Shown piece by piece: positions 29,662-42,460 of a stretch of DNA of 64,000 nt. Position 1 is the first letter of the stretch; every line of letters begins with the position of its first letter. The notes below the pieces were generated by a model. It made no database searches, was not told where the DNA came from, and was given only the letters and a program-made list of their open reading frames with translations. The DNA comes from an uncultured SAR116 cluster alpha proteobacterium (lineage in GTDB: Bacteria; Pseudomonadota; Alphaproteobacteria; Puniceispirillales; GCA-002684695): contig CACMFN010000006.1 of the NCBI GenBank assembly GCA_902612965.1, positions 1-64,000 on the forward strand, read 5' to 3'. A program made the position numbers and the translations under genes.

Positions 29662-30780
29662 TCATGAAAAATTAAAGTAATTTTCACACTTGCCTTCCCT
29701 AAAAACATCTGCAGTTGCGCAATGCAACCCTCCTCCAAAGGGGTAAGCATCTCTGAATGGTATAGGAACAACTTCAAAACCTAATTTATCAAGTTGTTCA
29801 ATTTGATTAGTTTCACTCGCTTCAACACATACAGTTTTAGGATCAAGAACTAAAACATTCATCGAAAGCCAAACAGATGAGTAGCACAAAGGTGGTGGTG
29901 AATTATGTGCAGGCCTCGCAGCATCAATAATTTCCCAGTCATTTTTTTCAAAAAACTTTCTTTGATCTTCAGGAAGTCTTCTATCTGGATTGTTGATAAT
30001 TAATCCAGGCCTTAAAGGAGAAAAAGTAGCATCTATATGTATTGGATATGGGTCACCAGGAAAATTTACAGCGTGAACGTTGTGATCTTTAAAGTGCCGT
30101 CTTAACCAATCTATACCTTTCAAATTAGTTGTAAAACCATGCTGAACTACCAAGTCTTTACCAAATCTTAATACATCTGCAGCATCAAATAGAGGCTCTT
30201 CCTCAGTTGTTACAAAATATTTTTCTGCTGTCCATTTTAGTCTTTTTTCAACGCCAATTTTTTCTGAAAGATAGTCCTTTCTATAATCTAAGTCAGTTAG
30301 TCTTGGTTTAGGGGCTGCTTCATGAACCATATTTTGGTCTTTATTAGAATACTTTTTAATTAATGGCCTATAGCATAAATACTCAAACCATCTACATCTA
30401 TACGACATAGTAGCCTCAAGCATTTGGTTGCCTACTGTTAAAATTACATCTCTCGGAGGCATTGATCCAAACATTGAACCTGTCTCAAAATCAGGAGTTA
30501 CTACTTTTTGTGAAAAGTCTATAGGAGTAGGTCTGTCTACTTTTATTCCTCTGTTTTCTAAAATTTTTACAAAATTATCTAATTGTTCATTAGCTTTAAA
30601 AATACTTTCCTCGGACCTTGGTCCCCAATCACCTTTCATATCAGAATCTTCAGGCACCTTAGCGTCAAGTGCAGGTTCAGCGGGCGGTATATGCGTTCCG
30701 TCGGCCACCCCTACTATCACATGCTTCAAAGGATCCCATTCATTCCAAGAGTTAACAATTGTTTTATTTTGCTTAGACAA
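29662..30780 (-). CDS. glycine-amidinotransferase-like enzyme, TTG start with perfect SD
   Basis: This enzyme is predicted to transfer the amidino group of arginine to an amine acceptor. The 372-residue protein is colinear with human arginine:glycine amidinotransferase. It has FDAADVLR at 198-205, the catalytic His248 in PIHIDATFSP, SSVWLSMNVLVLD, and the catalytic Cys354 in GGGLHCATADV. The residues just before the His (Tyr245, Ile247) differ from the Asn and Met that line the human acceptor site, so glycine may not be the acceptor. The TTG start has a textbook AGGAGGT four bases upstream. It follows an MFS gene by 11 bases on the same strand. Confidence 0.88.
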   Translation of the reverse strand: MSKQNKTIVNSWNEWDPLKHVIVGVADGTHIPPAEPALDAKVPEDSDMKGDWGPRSEESIFKANEQLDNFVKILENRGIKVDRPTPIDFSQKVVTPDFETGSMFGSMPPRDVILTVGNQMLEATMSYRCRWFEYLCYRPLIKKYSNKDQNMVHEAAPKPRLTDLDYRKDYLSEKIGVEKRLKWTAEKYFVTTEEEPLFDAADVLRFGKDLVVQHGFTTNLKGIDWLRRHFKDHNVHAVNFPGDPYPIHIDATFSPLRPGLIINNPDRRLPEDQRKFFEKNDWEIIDAARPAHNSPPPLCYSSVWLSMNVLVLDPKTVCVEASETNQIEQLDKLGFEVVPIPFRDAYPFGGGLHCATADVFREGKCENYFNFS

Positions 30781-30784
30781 TTAA

Positions 30785-30791
30785 ACCTCCT
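30785..30791 (-). promoter_or_regulatory. consensus ribosome binding site fixing the TTG start
   Basis: On the minus strand AGGAGGT stands four bases before the TTG at 30780. It is the best Shine-Dalgarno match noticed in the window and strongly supports TTG initiation of the amidinotransferase. Confidence 0.85.
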
Positions 30792-31970
30792 TTATTTAAT
30801 TAAATTCCAATGTATAACTGAAGATGAATAAATTGCTAAAAAATTTAATAAAATAATAATTATTATACATAAAGCAAAACTTTCATCACCTCCGCAAGCA
30901 ATAATAAAAGTTCCCAAAATTGCAGCAAAAGTCATTTGAGCAGCACCGGCAATCCCAGTTGCCGTGCCTGATAATTTTCCAGTAGCAGAAATCCCTCCGA
31001 TAATTGAGTTAGCTACTGTTATACCATTAAAAAGACCAAAAATAAAAAGAGGTAAGGATATGAAAAATGGATACTTAAAATTTAATAAATGAAAAACAAT
31101 CATCAAACTAAACGCAAATGAAGTTCCAAAGCAACCTATAAAACACATCTTAGATATACCAATTTTAGAAGCGTAATTTCCATTAATTATATTTCCTGTA
31201 AAATAACCAAGACCAGTAAAAGCTAGCCAAATACTGAATTCTGTTGAAGAGACGCCCATCCGCTCGAATTCATAAGGCATAAAACTAAAAGTTGAAAAAA
31301 ATATTGCTGTTTGGGTTGCTCCTAAAATTGTAAAATTTAAAAAGGTTTTATTAGAAATTACTTTATAATATGAATTTAATATTTCTGAGTTAGAAAATTT
31401 TTCAAAATTCAATGGTTTTGTTTCTGGTATAAACTTCAGTGTGCATAAAAAAAGAAAAAATCCAAAAATACTTAAAGTAAACATTGAACCCCTCCAACCG
31501 ATTGTGTCAGCAATTATTCCACCTGAAATAAGAGCTACATTAGGAAATATAACCATAACAGCAGTTATAAAAGACAACTTTTGTGCTGCCTCTTCTCTTA
31601 GAAAACTGTCATTAACTATTACTCTAGCCATTGACAAACAAGCTGCAGCGCCAAGTCCTTGAATAATTCGCATCAAAATCAAAAACTCAATATATGGAGA
31701 AATTATTGCTAGCAATCCCCCAATTGAATAGAGAAAGGCACCAAAAATAATAATTGGTCTTCTTCCAAGTTTATCGGACAATGTCCCAAAAAGTAGCTGT
31801 CCAATAGCAACAAAAAATATAAATGAGGTTAAAATTAATTGTGTCTTGTCCGCAGAAGCTTCAAAATTTGATTTAATCATAGTTAATGAAGGCGTAATTA
31901 GTGTCATGCCTATAACTGAACCTGCATTAGCTAATGCTAAAATGACTATTGCAAAACGATTTAAAGACAA
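30792..31970 (-). CDS. MFS transporter, Bcr/CflA drug-exporter type
   Basis: This 392-residue protein has 12 predicted membrane helices. The MFS motif A lies between helices 2 and 3 (FGTLSDKLGRRPIIIFG), and RIIQGLGAAACLSMARVIVND is the Bcr/CflA-type helix 4. Such proteins are proton antiporters exporting small molecules; no substrate can be read. The first codon is TTG at 31970 with a TAA two codons upstream, and later ATGs would truncate helix 1. With the amidinotransferase 11 bases downstream it may export that enzyme's product or a related guanidino compound, but this is inference. Confidence 0.88.
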   Translation of the reverse strand: MSLNRFAIVILALANAGSVIGMTLITPSLTMIKSNFEASADKTQLILTSFIFFVAIGQLLFGTLSDKLGRRPIIIFGAFLYSIGGLLAIISPYIEFLILMRIIQGLGAAACLSMARVIVNDSFLREEAAQKLSFITAVMVIFPNVALISGGIIADTIGWRGSMFTLSIFGFFLFLCTLKFIPETKPLNFEKFSNSEILNSYYKVISNKTFLNFTILGATQTAIFFSTFSFMPYEFERMGVSSTEFSIWLAFTGLGYFTGNIINGNYASKIGISKMCFIGCFGTSFAFSLMIVFHLLNFKYPFFISLPLFIFGLFNGITVANSIIGGISATGKLSGTATGIAGAAQMTFAAILGTFIIACGGDESFALCIIIIILLNFLAIYSSSVIHWNLIK

Positions 31971-32096
31971 AATTTAACTTTCAGCAAAAATTAAAAGAAA
32001 ATATTTAAAGTGCTACTTTTAAAGAGCTTTTTTAATTTAACAAGTTATTAATATCTTAAATTACTTCATTTATTTGGCTCGAAAGCATGGGTACAA

Positions 32097-32333
32097 ATGA
32101 ATGGACAGAATGAAATTATCACCTCATTTATTAATCAAAAACCTAAAACAAAACAATTCTCTGATGCAAACATTGAGAGACTTGAGTTAAAGAGATTTGC
32201 TCAATCCATTCTAAATCCTATTTCTTATCCAGTTTCAGAGGAAGAAGTCTTAAATGGCGTTTCAACATTTGAGGCAATTTCAAAGTCTATAAAAGAAAAA
32301 GGAAATAAAGTATTTACTGGCGAGATTAAATAA
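32097..32333 (+). CDS. hypothetical 78-residue protein
   Basis: This is a small open frame on the plus strand between the MFS and PhyH genes, ending two bases before the convergent PhyH stop. The translation is soluble, rich in charged and polar residues, largely helical by appearance, with no signal peptide, cysteine motif or known domain. No convincing Shine-Dalgarno precedes the ATG. An ATG 12 bases upstream in another frame gives only eight codons. The amino acid composition looks protein-like, but I recognise no family. Confidence 0.5.
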   Translation: MNGQNEIITSFINQKPKTKQFSDANIERLELKRFAQSILNPISYPVSEEEVLNGVSTFEAISKSIKEKGNKVFTGEIK

Positions 32334-32335
32334 AT

Positions 32336-33211
32336 TTATTTATTTTTTACCTTCTTCTGCTGCCCAAAAAAAGATGCCTCTTTTGGAAACTCAGGAAGCT
32401 CTAAGGTAAAAGAGGATGAACGGACAAGACCAGTTCTTTTACCTCTAACAATTTCACCTTCAAACTTATTAGGAAGAGGGTTTTTGTCCAGAGGCATAGC
32501 GTCCTCTGCAACGTAAGTAATAATAAATAAATTTCTATTTTTATTAGTTGAATTGGGCAACGAACCATGAAGAAGTCTTGAATGCATTAAACAGGCATCT
32601 CCAGCTTTACCAGTACATTTTACAGATAAATTTCTATATTTATTCTCAATTGCCTTATCGACTGCGCCAGTAAATACTCCATCCTGCCATAAACTATAAA
32701 TTGCCCCTTTATGGCTTTTGGGGACAACTTCCAAAGGACCATTTTCAAATGTAACATCATCCAGAAAATATAAAACCGTCATAATGTCGTCATTTGAATG
32801 CGGTTCAAACGGAAAATCCTGATGATATTTAACCGCTGTTCCAGAACCAGGCAATTTAAGATTTATTTTAGTCGCAAGTAATTTTACATTAGGTGAAAAA
32901 ATTTGAGTTATTAAATCTAATGCGAGGTTATCTCTTGTAAATGAAAGAAATGTTTCGGAAATTTCAATAGGAGAGGCTATTCTTCTTAATGCAGGATTGT
33001 CATTTGAATGAGTGTTAAGCTCAAGGTCAAAACGAGGTCTACCATCAATTGTCACGCCAAAATTTTTATTATGACTTTTCGAATCCTCTATCCAGGCACT
33101 GACTTCATTATTCATAATTTCTAAAGTTTTGTAATCGACAGCATTTTTAAATAAAACGTATCCGTTTTCATTAAAAAATTGTCTATAGTCCTCAAAATCT
33201 TGTTTTTCCAT
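32336..33211 (-). CDS. phytanoyl-CoA dioxygenase (PhyH) family oxygenase
   Basis: This Fe(II)/2-oxoglutarate oxygenase hydroxylates an unidentified substrate. From the ATG at 33211 (291 residues) the facial triad is visible: His130 and Asp132 in KYHQDF, and a distal His, most likely His215 in RLLHGS. Arg226 follows as the likely 2-oxoglutarate anchor. A TTG 12 codons upstream (33247) keeps the frame open but overlaps a decayed gene start and adds residues unlike the family. The gene is convergent with the 78-residue ORF and divergent from the creatininase gene. Marine alphaproteobacteria carry many PhyH paralogues, so the substrate cannot be inferred. Confidence 0.88.
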   Translation of the reverse strand: MEKQDFEDYRQFFNENGYVLFKNAVDYKTLEIMNNEVSAWIEDSKSHNKNFGVTIDGRPRFDLELNTHSNDNPALRRIASPIEISETFLSFTRDNLALDLITQIFSPNVKLLATKINLKLPGSGTAVKYHQDFPFEPHSNDDIMTVLYFLDDVTFENGPLEVVPKSHKGAIYSLWQDGVFTGAVDKAIENKYRNLSVKCTGKAGDACLMHSRLLHGSLPNSTNKNRNLFIITYVAEDAMPLDKNPLPNKFEGEIVRGKRTGLVRSSSFTLELPEFPKEASFFGQQKKVKNK

Positions 33212-33243
33212 TTTCAGCCAAACCCTAATTAAACTCAAATCTC

Positions 33244-33327
33244 TCAATCTGATAAATAAAAAAACTCATCATTTTTTGTATCAAAAGTTCCAATAACCAG
33301 TATTGTTTTACTAGAATTCTCACTCAT
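33244..33327 (-). pseudogene. 27-codon N-terminal remnant of a Tm-1-like/UPF0261 gene
   Basis: On the minus strand an ATG at 33327 with GAGAGG seven bases upstream (33340-33335) opens a 27-codon frame ending in TGA at 33244. The peptide contains TILVIGTFDTKNDEFFYLSD, which matches the conserved N-terminus of the Tm-1-like ATP-binding (UPF0261) family, normally about 400 residues. The rest of that gene is absent: the PhyH gene begins 33 bases after the stop. It is either a decayed remnant or now serves as a short upstream frame for the PhyH gene. Confidence 0.6.
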
Positions 33328-33417
33328 ATAAAAGCCTCTCAAAAAATTCGATTTACAAATACTAAAAAGCACTCATTATTGATTAAAACACTTTAACGAA
33401 AAGATTAAAACAGCAAA

Positions 33418-34167
33418 ATGCGATTAGAACAAACAGGCTGGATGGAAGTCCGTGACAAGCTTAAAAACTCTCAGGGAATAATTATGGCAACAGGTTCAAC
33501 AGAGCAACACGGTCCAATCGGCTTAATAGGAACTGATACGATTTGCTCTGAGACTATAGCGTCAAGTGTAGCTTCAAAGGCAAATATGTACCTCGCACCT
33601 TCGATAAGTTTTACACCCGCTGAATTTAACATGAAATTCCCAGGAACAATATCAATATCGGCACAAACATTTAAATCACTTTTAAGAGAGGTAACATCCT
33701 CTTTACTCAACCATGGATTTAAATACGTGCTTATCGTGAACGGACACGGTGCCAATATCGATTCAATAAAGGATGTTATGATCGATTTTAACAACAAACT
33801 ATTTTTTAAAAGCTGGTGGGATTTTCCAACAGTCAATGACATTAGAAATAAAGAATTTGGAGACTGGGAGGGAATGCATGCAACTCCATCTGAAATATCA
33901 ATAACACAAATAAATCAAAGAGTTATTGAAAATACTGAATTTAAAAAAATAGCTGAAAATCCACCTCAAAAATTAACAAAGGACTTCATTATTGCTCATT
34001 CGGGGGATAAACACGGCACTGCTGAAGAACATCATAGAGCTTTTCCAGATGGCCGCGTTGGATCGCACTCGGCAATGGCAAATCCCGAAATAGGAAAGAA
34101 AATTGTAAATGCTTCTGTCGAAGGTTTTTTAGAAGAAATTGAGAAACTTAACTCAACTCTTTTATAA
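33418..34167 (+). CDS. creatininase-family metal-dependent amidohydrolase
   Basis: This 249-residue protein belongs to the creatininase/MftE family, which opens cyclic amides such as creatinine. Metal ligands are visible in order: Glu29 and His31 in STEQHG, Asp40 in GTDT, His110 in NGHGAN, and Glu159 in HATPSE. Family members also act on other lactams and in F420/mycofactocin and purine-like pathways, so creatinine is not assured. Its 3' end overlaps the convergent Rieske oxygenase gene by 20 bases, and it is divergent from the PhyH gene across about 200 bases. An amidinotransferase lies 3 kb away. Confidence 0.9.
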   Translation: MRLEQTGWMEVRDKLKNSQGIIMATGSTEQHGPIGLIGTDTICSETIASSVASKANMYLAPSISFTPAEFNMKFPGTISISAQTFKSLLREVTSSLLNHGFKYVLIVNGHGANIDSIKDVMIDFNNKLFFKSWWDFPTVNDIRNKEFGDWEGMHATPSEISITQINQRVIENTEFKKIAENPPQKLTKDFIIAHSGDKHGTAEEHHRAFPDGRVGSHSAMANPEIGKKIVNASVEGFLEEIEKLNSTLL

Positions 34168-37429: not shown

Positions 37430-38992
37430 TTATAATTCAGAAAATGAAGAAAAACTCATTCCTTTTGCCATAATTGGAACCATGTCCACATTCGCTTTAA
37501 CCCCTCCACGCAGATGCTTCAAATCATAGTCAACTTCTAGTTCATCATCACTTCTCAAAACATGAACATTAGCTAATACATCTTCATCAAAGCTCCATTG
37601 ATAGCGACTAATCAATAGACGAAGAAATGCCTTGAGGAATACTGGAACAAGTGGAAGAAACGGGCATTGGTGATCATTTTTAACTTTCTTAGATCGATCA
37701 CTCTTATGAATTGGACAACCAAACCCCAGTGTCGGCAAAGGCTCTCCTAATTGCTCGTAAGATACACCTGATACATTATTAAATGAACTCCCAACAAAAC
37801 GTCTACTTCGAAAAATAGAAGGATCCTTCCACTGACTTGCATCTCGTTGCGCCATTGAAGTACTACATAACACAATTGTACCAGTTCGTAATTTGTGATG
37901 CTTTCCTTCTGTAGTTTCAATCATTGTATCTTCCATTAAGGGCATCATTACAGTTGGACCGTTGTGACGAAGCAACTCCCATACAAAACTAGTTAGGTGC
38001 TCATCATCATCCAATAGCTGTTTACCATGATCTGGCATCAATGATGTCAGCAAAATTCCATTTAATATTGAATTGGATAATCCTGCAGCATTAAATGTTA
38101 TTGCTGTAAAAAGTTTTTCAAAGGCCTCGCGCTCCGTAAGATCTGCTTCTACAGCTTTGGTGGAAATTTTCTTCCAATTATCAGTTTGCTTCGACATTTC
38201 AAACATCTCATTAAGTGCTGACTGCATATTGTAAAATGAAGGCAAAAGAATAACAGGTATTTTTGGATAACGAGGTAAATAATTTGGTATTGGGAAAACC
38301 TTATTTATCAATTTTTGTTGAAGGGGAGACCCTAACAATAGGCAACCTGCAAAATTATAAATTAATTCTCCAACAGCCTCTTCTAAAGATAATTTTTTTA
38401 GTTCCGTTTCTGAAAATTTTGTCCATTCTTCCAGTTTTAAACTAATATTTTCCATAGCAAACCGAAAATTGTCTGTATTTTCATCGGGTGGAAGCAGTGA
38501 TAAAATAAATTTCCGTGCATTTTGTGCCTGAATACCATTTGTAGTAAAAATTGGCTTCGATTGACGAGTAGTCACAAGATTTATGAAATGAGCCTGAGTA
38601 AGATTATCAACATCAGCAAACAGTGCTTCTGCTGATTGATGGTCACAACATACTACAACTGGTGTACCTACATTCGTAGAGAATACAGTCTTACCGATCA
38701 ATTTTGAGTGTTTTCCAAGAGAATTTGGACCACCCTTGAATATATAATAAAAATACCCAAAAATATCCCCGAGATAATTGCCAATAGAAGGCACAGGTTG
38801 AATTAAGGTTATATTTTGGTTTAAAGAAACTTCTTCATGTAAAGTATTGTCTAATAAAGTAGAATCGGGTTTTGATTTAATTAATATAGATTTAAAACGT
38901 ATTAAAAGCCCCCAGAACATATGCGTTAAAAGGTTTAGAAGAACTACTGGGATAAGCAATAAATATAAGAATTTCAAAGTAGTCGGCTTCAT
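37430..38992 (-). CDS. cytochrome P450-like protein with N-terminal membrane anchor, CYP74-like features
   Basis: This 520-residue protein has a P450 layout. The K-helix ExxR is ELLR at 339-342, the PERF-like region is FRSRRFVG at 394-401, and the probable heme ligand is Cys443 in DHQCPF, followed by a 20-residue L-helix; Cys426 in GFGCP is an alternative. The I-helix lacks the usual (A/G)Gx(D/E)T and instead reads FNAAG at 300-304, as in CYP74-type allene oxide synthases and hydroperoxide lyases, which need no O2 or reductase. Residues 6-31 form a membrane anchor, rare in bacterial P450s. It is downstream of, and likely cotranscribed with, the seven-helix gene. Confidence 0.72.
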   Translation of the reverse strand: MKPTTLKFLYLLLIPVVLLNLLTHMFWGLLIRFKSILIKSKPDSTLLDNTLHEEVSLNQNITLIQPVPSIGNYLGDIFGYFYYIFKGGPNSLGKHSKLIGKTVFSTNVGTPVVVCCDHQSAEALFADVDNLTQAHFINLVTTRQSKPIFTTNGIQAQNARKFILSLLPPDENTDNFRFAMENISLKLEEWTKFSETELKKLSLEEAVGELIYNFAGCLLLGSPLQQKLINKVFPIPNYLPRYPKIPVILLPSFYNMQSALNEMFEMSKQTDNWKKISTKAVEADLTEREAFEKLFTAITFNAAGLSNSILNGILLTSLMPDHGKQLLDDDEHLTSFVWELLRHNGPTVMMPLMEDTMIETTEGKHHKLRTGTIVLCSTSMAQRDASQWKDPSIFRSRRFVGSSFNNVSGVSYEQLGEPLPTLGFGCPIHKSDRSKKVKNDHQCPFLPLVPVFLKAFLRLLISRYQWSFDEDVLANVHVLRSDDELEVDYDLKHLRGGVKANVDMVPIMAKGMSFSSFSEL

Positions 38993-39042
38993 AACTTTAA
39001 AATCTTATATTAATAATAATAACATTCGTTATGAAAAGATAC

Positions 39043-39858
39043 TTAAGCAACCTGCTTCTCCGATGAATCAATACTTGGAACTGGCATTAGGAATGGGGCA
39101 GTGAGCGCCATCAAAACCCAGATTAAGTCCATCGGCTGTGAAATTGAGGGAGGTACAGGCCCAAAATTTTCAAATTGAATAAGTGCTATAGAAGCAAAAA
39201 TAACTTTTATAATTGAAACCATCATAAATACTGTACATGCAACTATAAAGATCATCTTACGGTTCTGGTCTTGAAAACAATGCAATACAAACACCAATGG
39301 CATGGCAATCATCAAAGCAACAAAAGGTGAAGTATGCATAATCATATTCTCTTCTGGGCCTATAGCAAGACAGAGAGAAAATGTAGCTGCAACTGCAACC
39401 AAGAAAACATTAGCTCCATATGATATACGTCTCAAATTAACGGAGATATGTTTCATCTGCATCAAACGCTTTGTATCTTCTACGGCAAATCTCACAATCA
39501 AATATGCCACAAAAAACCAAAAAATTGGTGTGACATATGTTGATGGAGCTGTGTCAAAAAGGATGCAAACGTGATTGTATCCATAATAGTTAATAATTGG
39601 ATTATTTTCAAAATCAAGGCGAGAAAATGTAAATGTCAAAACCGCACTAGTAAAGACCATAGCAACAAAAGAGTGAATAGCTGCACCCAGAAAACGCTCT
39701 GGTGACGGCATAGGAGTTAAATTAGGTTTTTTAAACCAAGGTTTGAAATTTTGATATAAAACAACAGATTGTAAAACTGCACACATTGTCAGCCCAGTCA
39801 GAATTCCCAGCGTCAGTTCAGATCCAGCCAGTTCTAAATGTGTGTGGCCTGCAGACAT
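39043..39858 (-). CDS. unknown seven-helix membrane protein paired with the P450
   Basis: I do not recognise this 271-residue protein. It has about seven hydrophobic segments (roughly residues 15-35, 56-80, 107-126, 145-167, 173-195, 201-226 and 240-260), a short N-terminus with GHTHLE that could bind a metal, and a polar C-terminal tail. The loop between helices 2 and 3 carries two Asn, two Tyr, a His and a Cys. It lies 50 bases upstream of the P450 gene on the same strand and is divergent from the patatin gene. Both members of the pair look somewhat less AT-rich than their neighbours, which may mean transfer. A receptor, carrier or membrane enzyme is possible. Confidence 0.75.
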   Translation of the reverse strand: MSAGHTHLELAGSELTLGILTGLTMCAVLQSVVLYQNFKPWFKKPNLTPMPSPERFLGAAIHSFVAMVFTSAVLTFTFSRLDFENNPIINYYGYNHVCILFDTAPSTYVTPIFWFFVAYLIVRFAVEDTKRLMQMKHISVNLRRISYGANVFLVAVAATFSLCLAIGPEENMIMHTSPFVALMIAMPLVFVLHCFQDQNRKMIFIVACTVFMMVSIIKVIFASIALIQFENFGPVPPSISQPMDLIWVLMALTAPFLMPVPSIDSSEKQVA

Positions 39859-40094
39859 AATAAGCTCCCAAATAAAAAAAATACTATTAATTCTAAATCA
39901 TTCAATCTTCTGATTTTATAAAAATATTAAAATAAAGTAAAATTTATATTAATAACGAATATATTTAATGAAACTTATTATATTAAAATTTTTTTTATAA
40001 TATCTATCTTTTTTCTAAAAATTATAGAAAAATATTTATATCAATTTTACTGAAAATAAAATTATTGATCTTTAAGAAATCAGGATGAATTTAT

Positions 40095-41795
40095 ATGACA
40101 AAAGAAAATAAAAGCCAGTTTGATAATTTAATTAACAAGATATTAAAAAAAAATAAAGATGCTAAGCTTAGCAAAAAATCTCTCCAAAACTTATTAAAAA
40201 ATGGTAAAATTTTATCTTTTGAAAAAGACGATAAACTTTTTAAACAGGGTGATCCCACTGTATCAGTTTACATAACAATTACTGGTTCATTTTCAGTTTT
40301 AATTAATGATGACACTAGTCAAATAAGCATAGCCGATATTGGAGTTGGGGAACTTATAGGAGAAATGGGTTCAATAACTGGGTTATCAAGATCAGCAACA
40401 GTTATAGCAAATAGAAAAAGTAAAGTACTTGAACTGAATTTAAAAGATATAAAAAATTCTGCTGAAGACAACTCTGAATTCTTATTACTTTTGGCAAGGG
40501 TTGCAATTGCAAGATTACTCCACAGTCAAAATGGAAAAACTGTTGAACACTTACCATCAGTTTATTGCTTGCTTGGACCTAATGCAAAAGATATAACCTC
40601 AACTATTTCAGGATATATGAAAAAATTTGGTTCTGTTGATATATTCAGTGACAATCAACTTGAGAAAAAAACATTAATTGACAGAGAAAATTCCCAAGAA
40701 AAAGCCGATTTTACAATTTATTTTTCTGAAAATATTTCCAATCAACCAACAGAAACAATAATATGGATGATCCAAAACAGTGATAGGTCAATTTTGATTT
40801 ACAATGGAGAAGAAACAAAAGAGCAGCAACAACTTAAATTTAATAAACTTATAAATTATTTAGGAAATTATGATGCAATAATCCATTGGCCTAATTCAAA
40901 AATTATTCCAGGTGTTACTGGTTGGCTTTTAGATTCATCAAATATAAATAATCACTACCATTATATAGATTCTTTGGATCTAAAAAGAATATCTCGTATT
41001 TTAACAGGCAATGGAATAGCTCTAGTTCTTTCTGGTGGGGGGGCAAGGGGAATGGCACACATAGGCTTTTATAAATACGCAATAGAGAACAAATTCGAGT
41101 TTGACCTTGTGGTTGGAACCAGTAGTGGTTCATTAGTTGGTGCTGGCATTGCACTTGGATGGTCTTTTGATGAAATAGTCAAAAACTTGGGGATGATGGC
41201 TAAAGTTAACCCACTACTAAATTTACATATTCCAAAAACTTCAATATTTAAAGACAAGGTACTAAAAAATTATAGTGCAAAGTGGTTTTCAGATATAAAC
41301 ATTGAAGACACCCGTATTCCATATAGAAATATTTCTGTGGATGTTGAACATTCAAAAGAATCAGTAAATTCCAGAGGACGAATTGAAGCATCTGTAAGAG
41401 CATCAGGCGCATTACCTGGTATTTTTCCTCCTGTAAAAATGGGAGACACATTGCATGTTGATGGTGGAGTAATGAATAATCTACCAACGGATCAGACCAA
41501 AGGTTTAGGAATTTCAAAAATTATAGGAATAGACATTGGCGCAAATGCATCACCCGAAAGCTCTGGACAAGAACAAAAGGAGCCAGGTTTATTTAGTTTA
41601 ATAACTTTAGTAGCAACTCTTGGTGATAGTGCAGGCGCTGATTTACATAGGAAACAATGTGATGTTCTTTTATTACCTGAAGTTTCAGAGATTAAAATTT
41701 TTGATTTCAAACTTTATGAAAAAGCAATTTCAATTGGATACGACTGTTCAGTAAAGAACAAGAATAAGCTCCACGAAATATTCAAAATTATTTAG
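40095..41795 (+). CDS. patatin-like phospholipase with cyclic-nucleotide-binding domain
   Basis: This is a predicted serine acyl hydrolase of the NTE/RssA group. Of 566 residues, about 30-145 form a cNMP-binding domain (GELIGEMGSITG, then RSATV). Residues ~150-290 form the linker region seen in bacterial homologues. Residues ~308-480 form the patatin domain, with oxyanion loop GGGARG 314-319, nucleophile Ser343 in GTSSG and catalytic Asp456 in DGG. There is no signal peptide. It is probably a cytosolic or membrane-associated phospholipase whose activity is set by a nucleotide or similar ligand. An AGGA about ten bases upstream supports the ATG. It converges with the PlsC-like gene. Confidence 0.93.
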   Translation: MTKENKSQFDNLINKILKKNKDAKLSKKSLQNLLKNGKILSFEKDDKLFKQGDPTVSVYITITGSFSVLINDDTSQISIADIGVGELIGEMGSITGLSRSATVIANRKSKVLELNLKDIKNSAEDNSEFLLLLARVAIARLLHSQNGKTVEHLPSVYCLLGPNAKDITSTISGYMKKFGSVDIFSDNQLEKKTLIDRENSQEKADFTIYFSENISNQPTETIIWMIQNSDRSILIYNGEETKEQQQLKFNKLINYLGNYDAIIHWPNSKIIPGVTGWLLDSSNINNHYHYIDSLDLKRISRILTGNGIALVLSGGGARGMAHIGFYKYAIENKFEFDLVVGTSSGSLVGAGIALGWSFDEIVKNLGMMAKVNPLLNLHIPKTSIFKDKVLKNYSAKWFSDINIEDTRIPYRNISVDVEHSKESVNSRGRIEASVRASGALPGIFPPVKMGDTLHVDGGVMNNLPTDQTKGLGISKIIGIDIGANASPESSGQEQKEPGLFSLITLVATLGDSAGADLHRKQCDVLLLPEVSEIKIFDFKLYEKAISIGYDCSVKNKNKLHEIFKII

Positions 41796-41842
41796 ACATC
41801 TTAAATTAAAAATAATATTTTAAGGTATCTTTATATTTGTAA

Positions 41843-42460
41843 TTAAATGTTAAGATCGCCTGGAGCCAAATGCCTTGAAGGGTGTCGACCCCTATAATCT
41901 TTAAATATGTATTTTAGAGCTAAAATATCTTTTTCATTGTTTCCAGTTGGATTAAAAGCTTTCTCTAACCTAAATGTCTTAGTTGGATAATCTAGCCCCA
42001 TAGGAATTATTATAGAATTGGAGATCTTAGCAATTCTTAAAAATCCAGTTTTCCATTTTGTAACTTTTTTTCTTGTCCCCTCTGGTGTAACCACTATCAA
42101 AACACCTTCGTTATTTTTTGAATAATCCGCTATTGTTTGTACCAAAAGTTCAGGATTGTTTCTGTCAACAGGAATTCCTCCTAATCTATTAAGTATAGTT
42201 CTAAAAATAGGAACAAAAGCAGATTTTTTTATTAAGTATTTTGCATTTATGTCAATTCCAAAAAGTATCATCATTCCAAAAATAAAATCCCAATTAGAAG
42301 TATGGGGTGCACTCACGACAACTATTCTTTTCACATTTGGTAACGTTCCTTCTATTTTCCAGCCAGTAAGATATAAAAGAAACTTTCCTATCAGATGAAG
42401 GATAAATAATCTATTTGCTCGATAAATTTTTGGAACAAAAATTTGTTTTTCTTTCTTCAA
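41843..42460 (-). CDS. PlsC-like 1-acylglycerol-3-phosphate acyltransferase, TTG start
   Basis: This 205-residue protein of the LPLAT superfamily has the catalytic H(x)4D motif at His53-Asp58 (HTSNWD), the substrate motif GGIPVDR at 94-100, and PEGTR at 126-130. It lacks clear full transmembrane helices beyond a hydrophobic N-terminal stretch. It probably acylates a lysophospholipid or a related lipid. The frame has no ATG near the N-terminus; TTG at 42460 is the likeliest start. Its stop lies about 50 bases from the convergent patatin gene. Confidence 0.88.
   Translation of the reverse strand: MKKEKQIFVPKIYRANRLFILHLIGKFLLYLTGWKIEGTLPNVKRIVVVSAPHTSNWDFIFGMMILFGIDINAKYLIKKSAFVPIFRTILNRLGGIPVDRNNPELLVQTIADYSKNNEGVLIVVTPEGTRKKVTKWKTGFLRIAKISNSIIIPMGLDYPTKTFRLEKAFNPTGNNEKDILALKYIFKDYRGRHPSRHLAPGDLNI

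Follow-up and report, generated by a model that had tools for sequence, protein, structure and literature searches.

A rare four-gene neighbourhood in SAR116 bacteria encodes a P450 with a putative CYP74-type active site, a seven-helix membrane protein and a cyclic-nucleotide-binding patatin

In CYP152 enzymes, an I-helix Arg-Pro binds the fatty-acid carboxylate. Within the CYP74 clan, Asn321 of AOS lies near the heme and touches the peroxide group (PMC13049297, PMC6627107), the Cys loop carries an insertion of nine residues (PMC6627107), and the lancelet enzyme CYP440A18 has VMFNAV at the I-helix position (PMC8124189). Bacterial CYP74-clan enzymes have already been described from Methylobacterium (PMC10813956), so that even full membership of another bacterial P450 in this clan would not be a first.

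The window, a stretch of 64,000 nucleotides (31% GC) from a 2.1 Mb SAR116 genome (G000), contained a block of four genes encoding a P450, a seven-helix (7TM) membrane protein, a patatin-like phospholipase and a PlsC-like acyltransferase (Table 1). All four open reading frames were located at the places and on the strands given by the sequence-only reading from which this analysis started, with domains assigned by Pfam, including both the patatin and the cNMP-binding domain of the phospholipase. The patatin gene is divergent from the 7TM-P450 pair, in which the 7TM gene lies 50 bp upstream of the P450 gene on the same strand. This spacing fits, but does not prove, the cotranscription first claimed for the pair. 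The block is flanked on the left by genes for an ABC-F-type ATPase, a Rieske oxygenase and a creatininase-like protein, and on the right by tRNA-Asp and tRNA-Val, followed by genes whose products were read as HU, Lon and ClpX. Neither searches of plasmids for the P450 and 7TM proteins nor scans of viral contigs gave any match. Elsewhere in the window (29662-34167), genes for a glycine-amidinotransferase-like protein, an MFS transporter, a PhyH oxygenase and a creatininase family hydrolase were grouped, which hints at guanidino-compound metabolism.

Table 1. Positions of the block genes, their motifs and the nearby gene group in the window.
Feature	Position	Strand	Remarks
Glycine-amidinotransferase-like protein	29662-30780		identity read from sequence; no Pfam match at 1e-6
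MFS transporter	30792-31970		
PhyH oxygenase	32336-33247		
Creatininase family hydrolase	33418-34167		
P450, membrane-anchored, divergent, 520 aa	37430-38992	-	Pfam p450 E=5.8e-8
P450 proximal loop, F424 to presumed heme ligand Cys443 (HQC)	37664..37723	-	12-residue insertion
P450 ExxR motif, E339-L-L-R342	37967..37978	-	
P450 I-helix motif, F300-N301-A-A-G304	38079..38095	-	replaces AGx(D/E)T; alignment with ordinary P450s and AtAOS FN321TWG
Seven-helix (7TM) membrane protein, 271 aa	39043-39858	-	no Pfam family match
Conserved 7TM motif GYN..C..FD.xP.T.V.P..W, residues 93-114	39517..39582	-	invariant columns in SAR116, MAG genus and Colwellia homologues
cNMP-binding-domain patatin-like phospholipase, 566 aa	40095-41795	+	Pfam Patatin E=3.8e-31, cNMP_binding E=4.6e-14
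cNMP-binding domain, phosphate cassette GE...RSATV	40215..40457	+	
Patatin domain, nucleophile motif GTSSG (341-345), DGG (456-458)	41022..41495	+	
PlsC-like acyltransferase, 205 aa	41843-42460	-	Pfam Acyltransferase E=1.6e-13

The gene neighbourhood is real and rare, and its recurrence exceeds what chance would give. Order and orientation of the four genes were repeated in a second SAR116 species, the single-cell genome AG-343-K16 (G001), whose locus (L003) reads PlsC(+), NADH dehydrogenase with a C-terminal cNMP domain(-), patatin(-), 7TM(+) and P450(+) up to the contig end, i.e. the window order on the opposite strand with one gene, the NADH dehydrogenase, added. Since this second species also carries all four genes, the objection that they might not occur together outside the window genome falls away, with one further genome only. 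Out of 136 genomes of the order, 2 contained the P450, and among 31 relatives the full-length patatin was confined to these same 2; the P450 was not found in the three other congeners (genomes 61-88% complete).

Between G000 and G001, the block proteins shared 73-87% identity (73% for the P450, 87% for the patatin), compared to 53-76% for core proteins (n = 5). Core proteins of G000 and G002, a genome from which the block is missing, shared 84-92% identity (n = 3). As the host is thus closer to G002 than to G001, transfer is likely, and the block appears to be a rare, lipid-related accessory of one SAR116 genus, acquired by horizontal exchange; the alternative would be differential loss under unusual constraint. 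The nucleotide identity between G000 and G001 differed between the block halves (86-88% vs 75-77%), so that a single shared history may not hold. In G001, GC3 reached 0.45-0.47 in the 7TM and P450 genes and 0.16-0.28 in the patatin, PlsC and core genes, and the 7TM-P450 pair may be read as a unit of foreign composition in that genome.

The P450 had been described as membrane-anchored and devoid of the oxygen-activating motif, and both traits were recovered: a hydrophobic anchor spans residues 3-31, and the acid/alcohol pair of AGx(D/E)T is missing, with A303 and G304 occupying those positions. Since these oxygen-activating residues are lost, the enzyme may act on lipid peroxides. In a profile alignment, Asn301 and Gly304 were in register with FN321TWG of AtAOS; in the multiple alignment, the AOS rows were out of place at the I-helix motif, so that the register is based on the profile alignment and the comparison with ordinary P450s. 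ExxR and Cys443 are kept, and with them the heme-thiolate anatomy, but the loop signature FxxGx(H/R)xCxG is interrupted by the insertion, with a spacing of 19 residues from F424 to Cys443, compared to 7 in the canonical FxxGxHxC and 16 in AtAOS. An L-helix-like stretch follows Cys443. The ERR triad (E339, R342 and RF at 398-399) is present as well, which is common to most P450s and hence not CYP74-specific. Neither a PPV domain after ExxR, where GPTV was found instead (345-348), nor the NKQCxGKD feature of CYP74 was found in the P450, and its segment beside FNAAG contains no Arg, the CYP152 I-helix Arg-Pro thus being absent. The reference sequences (AtAOS, P450BSbeta, PGIS, OleT, SPalpha) were checked against PDB chains. 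The AlphaFold2 model of the P450, built on a two-row alignment, had a pLDDT of 31, too low for structural comparison. Overall, there is good reason to consider the active site as CYP74-type, of the oxygen-independent kind.

The non-canonical proximal loop, a weak match to the P450-derived activator family TIGR04515 (E=6e-4) and the tight pairing with a seven-helix membrane protein lacking a family match would also suit a P450-fold protein that is not an enzyme but binds heme or plays a structural part alongside the 7TM protein, e.g. as a lipid or peroxide sensor. However, both copies retain Cys443, ExxR and the RF that follows the K-helix region, and such a role is considered very unlikely.

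Concerning descent, pairwise z-scores of the P450 were 4-5 with AtAOS, 1-3 with guayule AOS, 7-8 with PGIS, 6-13 with P450BSbeta and 1-15 with ordinary bacterial P450s, and profile comparison at similar depth gave E=2.6e-4 to 2e-10 for the ordinary sets, 1.3e-4 for CYP152 and 3e-3 for AOS, some of the ordinary P450s having been preselected for matching. A PDB profile search returned ordinary P450s as best matches, AOS being missing even at E=10, and a plasmid search with AtAOS yielded short P450 matches only (23-30% identity) and no CYP74. The P450 joined AOS in a first tree (support 91/99), P450BSbeta in a second one (81/80), where the AOS union was lost (p-AU 0.145), and AOS again in a third one with three CYP152 rows (91/86), with long branches in all three and without MnHPL or metazoan CYP74-clan members. 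The trees do not allow a choice between CYP74, CYP152, prostacyclin synthase and ordinary P450s. Given conflicting trees and background similarity, a CYP74-type active site is claimed here and not CYP74 membership: the initial description of the protein as CYP74-like held for the active site (Asn301/Gly304 and the Cys-loop insertion) but not for descent, global similarity being only at P450 background.

The profile comparison favours ordinary bacterial P450s over AOS and CYP152, as expected if the protein were a divergent ordinary P450, the P450-7TM pair having been transferred as a unit of two genes that acts on a substrate of its own, perhaps not a lipid, and patatin and PlsC belonging to no shared pathway. 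The pair is unlike patatin and PlsC in composition and divergence in G001, and the 7TM and PlsC homologues have different neighbours elsewhere, which points in the same direction. This reading has to accommodate the missing acid/alcohol pair for O2 activation and a four-gene order maintained in two species. AU tests on the third tree rejected the union with a single ordinary P450, L019 (p=0.005), but kept the other groupings, including the union with all ordinary P450s (p=0.13). An ordinary P450 beside unrelated neighbours is regarded as possible, though rather unlikely.

Several matches instead point to a CYP152-like peroxygenase, which, using H2O2, would hydroxylate or decarboxylate the fatty acids set free by the patatin. 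The NCBIfam CYP152 model matched with E=8e-6 (24.6 bits, far under the cut-off of 600), P450BSbeta reached a z-score of 13 with the window protein and 6 with its G001 counterpart, the Cys regions are alike (KGHRCPG...VMKASL vs NDHQCPF...FLKAFL), and the two were joined in the second tree. The carboxylate-binding Arg-Pro is missing, however, OleT and SPalpha scored at background, and inclusion of three CYP152 rows shifted the P450 to AOS; peroxygenase activity is considered quite unlikely.

Concerning the partner of the P450, its AlphaFold2 model (pTM 0.76) showed seven long helices, in agreement with its initial description as a seven-helix protein. No family match was obtained in Pfam or the further family libraries searched, and a rhodopsin, a GPCR-like protein or another known fold was rejected as no fold match was significant. 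Scanning genome contigs with the conserved motif gave three loci. Distant relatives were found in one alphaproteobacterial MAG genus (G422, G803, G804) and in Colwellia sp. TT2012 (L024), where a patatin gene lies directly upstream of the 7TM homologue; none of these four genomes contained a P450. In the intact neighbourhood of G804, neither patatin nor P450 was seen beside the homologue, and the contigs of G422 and G803 end close to it. A search of the Colwellia family gave no further convincing members. In both block-bearing species the 7TM and P450 genes occur together, and the older association, if any, would be that of 7TM with patatin, based on one unrelated example (Colwellia). This family, unmatched in the libraries searched, could be named and tested.

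Two settings of the 7TM homologues were observed in addition. In Colwellia (L024:5017-11928), the patatin-7TM pair and two small genes lie between two copies of a REP-associated-type transposase gene, nearly identical and equally oriented; a frameshift apparently splits the first copy, and the segment looks like a mobile cassette. In two alphaproteobacterial MAGs (L016:4857-8299, L029:5833-9219), genes for a cupredoxin-like secreted protein, a HAMP-type nucleotide cyclase and a DUF218 protein are conserved upstream of the homologue.

The patatin domain of the phospholipase scored 109 bits (cut-off 27.7) with intact catalytic Ser (GxSxG) and Asp (DGG) motifs, and the phosphate cassette of its cNMP-binding domain is also intact. 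The nearest solved patatin was PlpD, and the NCBIfam RssA model matched with E=3e-22, under its cut-off. An anti-phage role (CBASS/Pycsar) was considered and rejected, no cyclase being found among the four genes or their annotated neighbours and PADLOC giving domain-level patatin matches only. cNMP-binding domains occur on several membrane or lipid proteins of G000, including a mechanosensitive-channel-like protein with such a domain at its C-terminus (C1; L017:7577-9277). The gene inserted between PlsC and patatin in G001 and missing in the window block (L003:7268-8887, minus strand) encodes a type II NADH dehydrogenase-like FAD oxidoreductase, also with a C-terminal cNMP-binding domain (E=6e-21), and has an elevated GC3 (0.39).

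The PlsC-like protein at the far end of the block was confirmed as an acyltransferase by its domain (51 bits, cut-off 23) and by both motifs, HTSNWD (HX4D) and PEGTR. In G002, G004 and, as a second copy, G001, close homologues lie between dimethylargininase-like and homocysteine-methyltransferase-like genes (names read from sequence), unaccompanied by the other three block genes; in G000 the corresponding locus is without PlsC. PlsC is thus a genus-level gene with a weak link to the block, a separable and perhaps incidental neighbour.

As a whole, the block might form an oxidised-lipid pathway for repair or signalling, in which the P450 would rearrange a lipid peroxide; this is plausible and proposed tentatively, with PlsC as the weakest member. 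At the membrane, the P450 would rearrange a fatty-acyl hydroperoxide without need of oxygen or a reductase, the peroxide being positioned above the heme by Asn301. The cNMP-responsive patatin would free the oxidised acyl chain, the seven-helix protein would act as a membrane partner of the P450 (scaffold, carrier or sensor), and PlsC would re-acylate the lysolipid; the repair and lipid-signal steps we only infer. Autoxidation, photo-oxidation or other organisms would supply the peroxides. Searches of G000-G004 gave no lipoxygenase or animal-type heme peroxidase/dioxygenase, but these genomes are incomplete and the control genomes of both searches were silent as well, so that the absence of a peroxide-making enzyme, asserted for lipoxygenase by the sequence-only reading, is unproven. 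The single pathway proposed there is in line with co-occurrence in G001 and with the patatin preceding 7TM in Colwellia, but an obligate four-gene pathway is not supported, as PlsC occurs without the other three genes and 7TM without any P450.

If the P450 does rearrange lipid peroxides, the block would be a compact bacterial route to handle, or signal with, oxidised membrane lipids in seawater, and the enzyme would offer an early-branching or convergent case for the origin of CYP74-type chemistry. A wider reading is a new marine bacterial P450 family that acquired CYP74-type hydroperoxide chemistry independently or anciently, is membrane-anchored and is coupled to a new 7TM protein and a cyclic-nucleotide-gated phospholipase, forming a bacterial pathway for oxylipins or lipid peroxides that is controlled by a second messenger. 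This is considered unlikely. The locus is of interest mainly because it offers a lead, open to testing, on P450 chemistry without oxygen in marine bacteria.

Compared to the CYP74 clan (plant AOS/HPL, lancelet CYP440A, bacterial MnHPL of Methylobacterium nodulans), the P450 shares the I-helix FN..G in register, the lack of the acid/alcohol pair, ExxR then RF (RFVG) and a Cys-loop insertion. It differs by an identity below family level and at P450 background overall, by the lack of PPV and NKQCxGKD, by the length of the insertion (12 vs 9 residues), by its N-terminal membrane anchor and in that no lipoxygenase was found with it. With CYP152 (P450BSbeta, SPalpha, OleT) it has in common the missing oxygen pair, Hx-Cys-Pro, a hydrophobic L-helix and a lengthened Cys loop, whereas it lacks the I-helix Arg-Pro, carries a membrane anchor and scores well with one of three CYP152 members. 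Prostacyclin synthase CYP8A1, a peroxide isomerase, likewise carries a membrane anchor and places an Asn (Asn287, PMC13049297) close to the heme, with a pairwise z of about 7-8, but its Asn belongs to another motif (TQGNMGP), it has no Cys-loop insertion and it is an animal enzyme acting on PGH2. RssA and neuropathy-target-esterase type patatins have, like the block patatin, a cNMP domain followed by a patatin domain with GxSxG and DGG, whereas the latter has a single cNMP domain and is divergent from the P450-7TM pair. Finally, the pair of Colwellia sp. TT2012, whose patatin is of another type (598 aa, no cNMP domain) and which is flanked by two REP-type transposase copies in a genome without P450, resembles the block in that a 7TM homologue, 28% identical, lies directly downstream of a patatin.
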